A stretch of 64,000 bases of DNA from Pelagibaculum spongiae (lineage in GTDB: Bacteria > Pseudomonadota > Gammaproteobacteria > Enterobacterales > Pelagibaculaceae), in NCBI RefSeq assembly GCF_003097315.1, contig NZ_QDDL01000001.1, forward strand, positions 1,302,001-1,366,000. Reading direction: 5' to 3'. This document shows positions 61,465 through 63,372 of this stretch, piece after piece. The translations under genes and the position numbers were made by a program. The notes beneath the pieces are model-generated. The model did not search any database. It was given only the letters and a program-made list of their open reading frames with translations, and was not told the DNA's origin. The first letter of the stretch is position 1. Every line of letters starts with the position of its first letter.

Positions 61465-61539
61465 TGGGGTGTCGCCAAGCGGCAAGGCAGCAGGTTTTGA
61501 TCCTGCCATTCAGAGGTTCGAATCCTCTCACCCCAGCCA
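61465..61539 (+). tRNA. tRNA-Gln (TTG), copy 1
   Basis: 75 nt including encoded CCA. Acceptor stem TGGGGTG/CACCCCA, anticodon stem GCAGG/CCTGC with loop TTTTGAT (anticodon TTG), T arm AGAGGTTCGAATCCTCT. Confidence 0.95.
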
Positions 61540-61562
61540 TATTTTGCAGTACCCAGTTTTAT

Positions 61563-61637
61563 TGGGGTGTCGCCAAGCGGCAAGGCAGCAGGTTTTGATC
61601 CTGCCATTCAGAGGTTCGAATCCTCTCACCCCAGCCA
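61563..61637 (+). tRNA. tRNA-Gln (TTG), copy 2
   Basis: Identical to copy 1, exactly 98 bp downstream. Confidence 0.95.
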
Positions 61638-61660
61638 TATTTTGCAGTACCCAGTTTTAT

Positions 61661-61735
61661 TGGGGTGTCGCCAAGCGGCAAGGCAGCAGGTTTTGATCCT
61701 GCCATTCAGAGGTTCGAATCCTCTCACCCCAGCCA
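61661..61735 (+). tRNA. tRNA-Gln (TTG), copy 3
   Basis: Identical to copy 1; the 23-bp spacers between copies are also identical. Confidence 0.95.
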
Positions 61736-61758
61736 TATTTTGCAGTACCCAGTTTTAT

Positions 61759-61833
61759 TGGGGTGTCGCCAAGCGGCAAGGCAGCAGGTTTTGATCCTGC
61801 CATTCAGAGGTTCGAATCCTCTCACCCCAGCCA
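61759..61833 (+). tRNA. tRNA-Gln (TTG), copy 4
   Basis: Identical to copy 1; followed by the terminator of the array. Confidence 0.95.
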
Positions 61834-61838
61834 TATAT

Positions 61839-61870
61839 AAAAATCCGACTTTATAAGTCGGATTTTTTTT
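61839..61870 (+). terminator. Terminator of the tRNA-Gln array
   Basis: AAATCCGACTT (61841-61851) pairs with AAGTCGGATTT (61855-61865), TAT loop, T-run of eight. Confidence 0.9.
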
Positions 61871-61904
61871 GCTTGAAATTTGTTTACCGCTCAGATTAGC
61901 GACA

Positions 61905-61952
61905 TATACCCAAGCCACTTCAAGAGGTGCATCTTGAAGTGGCTTGGGTATA
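61905..61952. repeat. Perfect 21-bp TATACCC-type palindrome
   Basis: Arms 61905-61925 (starting TATACCCAAGCC) and 61932-61952 are perfect complements with a 6-nt loop. It belongs to the same end-type family as 9699-9751 and 37767-37851. Confidence 0.9.
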
Positions 61953-62021
61953 AAGCCGTAACTGTCATTTGCTCACGATTGGTTTTACCTAAGGCGATTT
62001 TTTTTGTTGTTTTATTTACAC

Positions 62022-62049
62022 TTGCCTGACGTGTGAAAATAAGTACAAT
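62022..62049 (+). promoter_or_regulatory. prs promoter
   Basis: TTGCCT (62022-62027), 16-bp spacer, TACAAT (62044-62049). It predicts a transcript start near 62056 and a leader of about 130 nt. Confidence 0.7.
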
Positions 62050-62065
62050 GCGCCGGTACAAATTA

Positions 62066-62170
62066 TGGGCAGCAACCCAGAGGGGAACCTAACAAGAATC
62101 AAAAGGTTAGGATAGCGTTATAGACATGTCTATGTGTCTCTACCCCTCACTCCACCGCGATTCTTGCCCA
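62066..62170 (+). ncRNA. Structured prs leader RNA (candidate)
   Basis: Nested pairings are visible: TGGGCA (62066-62071) with TGCCCA (62165-62170), GAGGGG (62080-62085) with CCCCTC (62143-62148), CCTAAC (62088-62093) with GTTAGG (62106-62111), and AGACA (62122-62126) with TGTCT (62135-62139). Together they form an outer stem holding a multi-helix junction that closes 16 nt before the prs start codon. I do not recognise a known riboswitch class. Confidence 0.5.
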
Positions 62171-62186
62171 GTTCCACAGAAAAAAT

Positions 62187-63176
62187 ATGTCCACCCAAAC
62201 TGAATCTGACATCTCAAGGAATCCGATTGTGGCCGATTTGATGGTATTTGCCGGAAATGCAACTCCAGAACTAGCCGAACAAGTCGCTCGTTACCTCTCT
62301 GTCCCCCTTGGCAAAGCCAAAGTAGGCAAGTTCAGCGATGGCGAAGTTGCTGTAGAAATTCAGCAAAATGTTCGCGGCAAGGATGTTTTTATCATCCAAT
62401 CAACCTGTGCACCGACCAACGACAGCTTGATGGAAGTAATGGTGATGGCTGACGCATTGCGCCGTGCATCTGCAGGCCGTATTACCGCAGTAATGCCTTA
62501 CTTTGGTTATGCTCGCCAAGATCGCCGCCCTCGCTCAACCCGAGTGGCGATTTCAGCAAAAGTAGTCGCAGACATGATCACTGGCGTTGGTGTTGACCGA
62601 GTACTCACGGTTGACCTTCACGCTGATCAGATCCAGGGCTTTTTCGACATTCCTGTCGACAACGTTTACTCGACTCCAGTTATGCTGGATGACGTTGAGC
62701 GTCAAAACTACGAAGATATCGTGGTCGTTTCCCCAGACGTTGGCGGTGTAGTCCGTGCACGTGCGATTGCCAAGCGCCTTGATGAAGCCGATTTGGCCAT
62801 CATCGACAAGCGTCGCTCCAAGGCTAACGTTTCTCAGGTTATGCACATCATCGGTGATGTAAAAGATCGTACCTGCATCCTGGTCGATGACATGGTCGAT
62901 ACCGCAGGAACCTTGTGCAATGCAGCCAATGCTTTGAAAGAACATGGTGCCAAGCGTGTAGTGGCTTACTGTACTCACCCGGTACTGTCGGGCAAAGCAA
63001 TGGAAAACATCAGAAACTCCAAGCTGGACCAGCTAGTTGTCACCGATACCATTCCTTTGACTGACGAAGCCAAGGCTTGCGACAGAATCCGTGTAGTGAC
63101 TTTGGCCGATATCTTGGCTGAATCAGTACGCCGGATTACCAATGAAGAATCTATCAGCTCGATGTTCCTGCTGTAA
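62187..63176 (+). CDS. prs: Prs, ribose-phosphate pyrophosphokinase
   Basis: 329 aa. It makes PRPP from ribose 5-phosphate and ATP for nucleotide, His and Trp synthesis. Motifs: [10 protein letters not shown] (about 49-58), [10 protein letters not shown] (about 110-119), [13 protein letters not shown] (about 141-153), and the PRPP loop [10 protein letters not shown] (about 233-242). The N-terminus ([17 protein letters not shown]) is about 14 residues longer than in most bacterial enzymes. It follows a promoter and a structured leader. Confidence 0.96.
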
Positions 63177-63241: not shown

Positions 63242-63275
63242 ACCACTGCCTCTATCCGGGGGTGGTGGTTTTTTG
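63242..63275 (+). terminator. Weak prs terminator
   Basis: ACCAC (63242-63246) pairs with GTGGT (63262-63266), with partial pairing inside, followed by TTTTTT. Short stem, moderate support. TACAAT about 10 nt later may be the rplY -10 element. Confidence 0.55.
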
Positions 63276-63372
63276 ATACAATCCGCCGCCGCTTTTTTGT
63301 GGGCGGACCATTCAGGAATCGGTATTTTGGTCGCGAAAACCGGTTCTGTAGTTAATCTATCAGGAGAATCTG

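Follow-up and report, generated by a model that had tools for sequence, protein, structure and literature searches.

A candidate translational gate in the leader of the PRPP synthase gene prs of Pelagibaculum spongiae

Main finding

The RNA leader of prs, the gene for ribose-phosphate pyrophosphokinase (PRPP synthase), may act in Pelagibaculum spongiae as a lineage-specific translational gate, seen to date only in this genome. We put this reading forward tentatively, as it is about equally likely that the structure of the leader is incidental. The helices that the gate needs are possible, mutually exclusive and close in predicted energy, and the position of the start codon that they would control is conserved. 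We infer that RNA is made from a promoter at 62022-62049, that both folds occur and that the folds change translation. Neither a ligand nor a protein trigger for the gate is indicated.

Results

The prs locus

The window, that is, the whole stretch of 64,000 nucleotides analyzed here, comes from a genome of 4.99 Mb whose nearest relatives in our comparison set belong to the same order. The closest prs protein among the named genomes is 77% identical (among the best 80 of 585), and the closest in 369 genomes of the class is 74% identical. Within the window the gene order is lolB-ispE-four tRNA-Gln genes-leader-prs-rplY, where lolB, ispE and rplY are what we take the neighboring sequences to be. 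The tRNA-Gln genes stand in a tandem of four, apparently identical and with 98-nt spacing (61465-61830). The features that define the start of prs are as follows.

62022-62049, + strand: predicted sigma-70-type promoter, with TTGCCT at 62022, 16 nt and TACAAT at 62044-62049 (9 of 12 matches)
62057-62228, + strand: predicted prs 5' leader of about 172 nt, placed by the promoter-like site and the conserved start-codon position
62187-62228, + strand: in-frame stretch from ATG 62187 to the GTG, probably untranslated leader, lacking a Shine-Dalgarno-like motif before the ATG
62216-62220, + strand: Shine-Dalgarno sequence AAGGA, 8 nt upstream of GTG 62229
62229-63176, + strand: prs (ribose-phosphate pyrophosphokinase) with GTG start, placed by the conserved start position, the Shine-Dalgarno sequence and the PDB alignments

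Terminator-like hairpins lie behind the last tRNA-Gln gene (61839-61867) and between prs and rplY (63242-63269). Based on these hairpins on both sides and the promoter-like site at 62022-62049, prs is probably its own transcription unit. The TTGCCT/TACAAT pair implies a predicted transcription start near 62056. The evidence for this promoter is weak, since the one promoter-like site found in 61800-62300 compares with 1.1 expected in shuffled sequence, which is the chance level.

The spacer between tRNA-Gln and prs differs in length among lineages. In the window the distance from tRNA-Gln to the start codon is 395 nt, against a median of 52 nt and a maximum of 342 nt in the 77 relatives with an upstream tRNA-Gln gene. 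A perfect 21-nt inverted repeat at 61905-61952 belongs to a dispersed repeat family, which has 40 matches in the genome at E<=0.01, the query place being counted and many of the matches being the two strands of one palindrome.

The start codon of prs

Comparison with relatives indicates that the true start of prs is most likely GTG 62229 rather than ATG 62187. Of 108 relatives (L005 left out of the count), 89 have an ATG or GTG 18 nt upstream of the F codon of a conserved N-terminal motif, GTG in 67 cases, and 105 have a start codon 18-30 nt upstream of it. At the 89 conserved starts, a Shine-Dalgarno-like motif of at least three letters is present in 85 and of at least four letters in 58. Among 29 further loci of the class the nearest start is 21-30 nt before the F codon in 26 and exactly 18 nt in none (of the remaining three, two were unrecognized and one had no start in range), so the position of the start is close to constant without being fixed. 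GTG 62229 of the window is 18 nt from the F codon and ATG 62187 is 60 nt from it. Counted from the ATG, the GTG is codon 15, and 25 of 27 sequences of solved PRPP synthases in the PDB align from query residue 16-18 onward. The two exceptions are 6asv, which aligns from residue 10 and carries a tag-like PRGSH before its methionine, and 2c4k, which aligns from residue 20.

The first-pass annotation had given prs an N-terminal extension and had placed the outer stem of the leader just upstream of the start codon. The reading frame is indeed open from ATG 62187, and a start there would add 14 residues and bring the stem immediately 5' of the start. This appears very improbable, as no Shine-Dalgarno-like motif precedes the ATG, its 60-nt distance is far from that of the starts in relatives and nearly all of the PDB homologs align from beyond the extension. 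Moreover, the RNP of the extension is what the AAGGAAUCC stretch encodes in translation. Given the likely start at GTG 62229, the extension is probably leader and the outer stem lies more than 50 nt upstream of the start; neither part of the earlier description is supported.

Stems and nested fold of the leader

Several perfect stems do lie before prs, as had been described, and the region 62057-62235 holds four Watson-Crick stems of at least 6 pairs. The sequence CAAGAAUC at 62093-62100 can pair over 8 bp with GAUUCUUG at 62159-62166, and CCUAAC (62088-62093) can pair with GUUAGG (62106-62111). The helices used in our modeling are these.

62066-62071, + strand: P1 5' strand UGGGCA, partner 62165-62170
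62165-62170, + strand: P1 3' strand UGCCCA, abutting the pseudoknot strand 62159-62164
62080-62085, + strand: P2 5' strand GAGGGG, partner 62143-62148
62143-62148, + strand: P2 3' strand CCCCUC, partner 62080-62085
62088-62111, + strand: P3 hairpin CCUAAC/GUUAGG, whose 12-nt loop contains the pseudoknot strand 62095-62100
62122-62139, + strand: P4 hairpin AGACAUG/UGUGUCU with G-U pairs included, strands 62122-62128/62133-62139

The earlier description of at least four nested pairings needs correction in one respect. The stems are present, but they are not all nested, because the helix of 62093-62100 with 62159-62166 crosses both that of CCUAAC and that of GAGGGG; the set must therefore be either a pseudoknot or a group of alternatives. 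The nested picture corresponds to one fold, based on a long hairpin (62084-62100/62159-62175) whose 17-nt arms are 76% complementary and make up the outer part of the minimum free energy (MFE) fold.

Taken as a nested fold, the leader is ordinary in both stability and number of stems, with modest significance. The region 62040-62200 gives z -1.64, a stability that 12 of 200 shuffles match, and three 112-nt segments give z -1.3 to -1.8, values that 15-25% of 710 window segments equal or better. The score falls to z -0.72 for 62057-62235 and z +0.61 for 62057-62260, both of which take in the start region; the z of -3.48 for 62084-62175 refers to ends picked after the stem was seen. Shuffled sequences hold 2.4 stems of at least 6 pairs on average, and 105 of 500 reach the four seen here; 59 of 500 contain one or more 8-bp stems.

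A possible pseudoknotted fold

A structured leader before prs becomes plausible in the models once crossing helices are allowed. Optimization with crossing helices picks P1, P2, P3 and P4 together with a pseudoknot helix, 62095-62100/62159-62164, giving five helices that share no base. The 3' strands of the pseudoknot helix and of P1 adjoin without overlap (62159-62164 and 62165-62170). Helices were scored by adding up stacking terms and charging each helix a fixed penalty of 4 kcal/mol, which falls short of a full pseudoknot model. By this measure 62056-62186 scores -34.75, a value that 4 of 1000 dinucleotide shuffles attain. The score of the whole leader was reached by 51 of 1000 shuffles, and that of 62057-62180 by 3 of 400 shuffles and by 9 of 399 window segments. 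The elaborate leader RNA proposed in the first-pass annotation thus stands in part: it beats chance somewhat with crossing helices and is ordinary as a nested fold.

A predicted Shine-Dalgarno switch

Three segments of the leader could compete around the Shine-Dalgarno sequence.

62093-62100, + strand: element 1, CAAGAAUC, 8 bp with element 2, or 6 bp (62095-62100) if P1 and P3 form
62159-62166, + strand: element 2, GAUUCUUG, partner of element 1 or, through 62159-62165, of the Shine-Dalgarno region
62217-62223, + strand: element 3, AGGAAUC, with most of the Shine-Dalgarno sequence inside, able to pair with 62159-62165

The helix between elements 2 and 3 has 7 bp with G-U allowed. In prediction, then, the leader has the layout of a translational switch, with mutually exclusive possible helices of which one covers the Shine-Dalgarno sequence. 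When 62057-62260 was folded, the closed state gave -42.4, which is also the unconstrained MFE, and the state with the 8-bp helix gave -42.4 as well; the nested P1-P4 fold gave -39.4 with the pseudoknot helix left unscored. In the predicted ensemble, pairing with element 2 stands at 0.14 for 62217 and at 0.20 for 62221, a minority, and 62218-62220 favor 62205-62207 at 0.18-0.25.

The layout was compared with shuffles in which the Shine-Dalgarno segment was held fixed, using thresholds that were set after seeing the sequence. An anti-Shine-Dalgarno element combined with an 8-bp competitor occurred in 4 of 3000 shuffles, and 32 of 3000 matched at relaxed thresholds. A helix of at least 7 pairs on the Shine-Dalgarno segment appeared in 426 of 3000.

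Other prs leaders were also considered. At looser thresholds a competitor helix is found in 11 of 27 other prs leaders, which were chosen for length. A competitor of at least 8 Watson-Crick pairs occurs only at the window locus and at L019 among the listed prs leaders. Two further loci have long pairings of their own. In L050 (Endozoicomonas elysicola), a 9-bp long-range pairing at about 2344-2500 joins UACCUUGUU to AGCAAGGUA, the latter containing the prs Shine-Dalgarno sequence. In L081 (Acinetobacter haemolyticus), a 13-bp helix that includes G-U pairs lies over the prs Shine-Dalgarno region, and the prs spacer apparently has internal repeats.

Search for homologous leaders

In order to find related leaders, two covariance models, R1 and R2, were used, each restricted to nested helices and trained on one sequence (as two identical rows). 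Model R1 recovered only its own copy from 369 genomes of the class at E<=0.1. From 394 genomes of the order, R2 recovered at E<=0.3 its own copy and one marginal match (E 0.19), which lies on a different contig from the prs gene of that genome. None of the 125 prs loci examined from other genomes (a first 96 and a further 29, a few with short upstream sequence) matched a covariance model. Of the 97 sources in the first search, only the window was hit, once as itself and once in antisense at that same position (12 bits, E 3.6), and a second set of 43 sources returned only the window's own locus. The genome scans combined strict filters with one-sequence models, and distant homologs could be missed.

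Within its own genome the leader has no second copy by covariance model, and blastn gave, besides the leader itself, only five short matches with E 1.7-5.9. BLAST of the leader against the 394 order genomes gave a match at E<=1 in 178, counting its own genome, and the best foreign match among the matches listed has E 0.0025 over 30 bases. Plasmids and phages gave no match to the leader, and viral contigs none to an exact 19-base leader pattern. The leader is thus known from one sequence, and the genomes searched yielded no homolog of the kind expected for a conserved structured cis-regulatory RNA. As the models rest on one sequence, these results are weak evidence of absence.

Known RNA families and regulators

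At gathering scores, Rfam matched the window only at 4 tRNAs. At E<=10 the region 61900-62300 had 6 matches, none to ykkC/PRPP or otherwise relevant. No PurR box with at most 3 mismatches to the consensus used was found in the window, and no terminator-like site that would allow attenuation by an intrinsic terminator was seen on the + strand of the leader. Among the open-licence papers listed in the literature search, none dealt by its title or the opening of its abstract with a prs leader RNA in Gammaproteobacteria.

The PRPP riboswitch resembles the prs leader in being an RNA element tied to PRPP metabolism, but the leader has no ykkC-family match at E<=10. That riboswitch is ykkC subtype 2b, is described in Firmicutes and stands about half the time in tandem with guanine aptamers (PMC5912903). 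The term prs is absent from the main text searched of that paper.

Another known system concerns the next gene, rplY. In relatives of E. coli the bL25 translational operator is a case of translation controlled by leader structure, but it acts on rplY and not on prs (PMC10931766), and the hairpin at 63242-63269 separates the two genes here. Control of a prs-rplY operon by L25 was considered and rejected on account of this terminator-like site. The rplY leader itself (63277-63372) contains GGTCGC, a stretch found again on the side of rplY in several relatives; it is possibly related to the known bL25 operator (PMC10931766). The same paper, however, gives the operator for short bL25, and the protein in the window has 205 aa.

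Discussion

How the gate would work

In the open state of the proposed gate, GAUUCUUG would pair with CAAGAAUC, either within the pseudoknot (P1-P4 and the pseudoknot helix) or in the long hairpin, and the Shine-Dalgarno sequence would be free. In the closed state, 62159-62165 would pair instead with AGGAAUC at 62217-62223 and hide the Shine-Dalgarno sequence, and flanking pairs would also shut the GTG start. Translational attenuators work through anti-Shine-Dalgarno and anti-anti-Shine-Dalgarno elements, and the prs leader is like them in having, around the Shine-Dalgarno sequence, three segments whose pairings exclude one another. It differs in that its layout is predicted only and no homologs were found. 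Other gamma- and betaproteobacterial prs leaders precede the same gene, and their start codons coincide or almost coincide in position with the one here, but they show no covariance-model similarity to the window leader and are usually short, directly behind tRNA-Gln or the upstream gene.

Weighing the alternatives

The strongest alternative, about on a par with the gate and like it somewhat short of an even chance, is that the structure is incidental. The region would then be a long, lineage-specific spacer from the tRNA-Gln terminator to prs, carrying a promoter and an unremarkable leader; the stems would be due to chance or weak selection and have no regulatory role. This agrees with a nested fold inside the range of the window, with a stem count that about a fifth of shuffles (105/500) reach, with loose Shine-Dalgarno competitors in 11/27 other prs leaders, with the failure to find a homologous leader in the genomes searched and with the variable length of the spacer. 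The ordinary nested fold, the loose competitors in other prs leaders and the failure to find a homolog also count against the gate, as do the shuffles with an 8-bp stem (59/500) or a helix of at least 7 pairs on the Shine-Dalgarno segment (426/3000), the whole-leader score (51/1000), the post hoc thresholds, the chance-level promoter and a closed pairing that takes up a minority of the ensemble. What speaks for the gate and against incidental structure is the rarity among shuffles of the pseudoknot-inclusive score for 62056-62186 (4/1000) and of the strict switch layout (4/3000); the close predicted energies of the folds and GTG 62229 with its AAGGA also count for the gate.

A metabolite riboswitch, in which PRPP, a purine nucleotide, ppGpp or ribose 5-phosphate would stabilize the pseudoknot and control prs translation, seems improbable. 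It would fit a gene at a metabolic branch point, as prs is, and a possible compact pseudoknot does lie beside a possible expression platform. However, none of the six Rfam matches is relevant, and no relative with the leader was found, though riboswitch aptamers are normally conserved. In addition, the pseudoknot would free the Shine-Dalgarno sequence, the opposite of what simple product feedback would call for. No result supports a riboswitch for PRPP or purines, and the feedback by PRPP, purines or ppGpp that had been suggested earlier finds no support in the Rfam, PurR box or homolog searches. It is scarcely credible that the leader represents a new class of pseudoknotted aptamer for a nucleotide-pathway metabolite (P1-P4, with the P3 loop pairing beside the 3' strand of P1) that controls prs translation by freeing or hiding its Shine-Dalgarno sequence and is confined to one sparsely sampled proteobacterial family.

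Control by a protein or the ribosome, with the fold decided by a leader-binding protein or by a 16-codon frame from ATG 62064 to TAG, is a similarly distant prospect: because it overlaps with element 1 and with the 5' strands of P1-P3, translation of the frame would free element 2, but no Shine-Dalgarno sequence is apparent upstream of ATG 62064 and the frame is known from one leader for which no homologous leader was found.

Implications

The translational gate is for now a single-genome prediction, but it defines the exact competing segments, and the idea can thus be checked with a few reporter mutants. PRPP synthase supplies the synthesis of purines, pyrimidines, histidine, tryptophan and NAD, and, if the prediction is true, a gate in the RNA would add a new point of control at the level of its translation.
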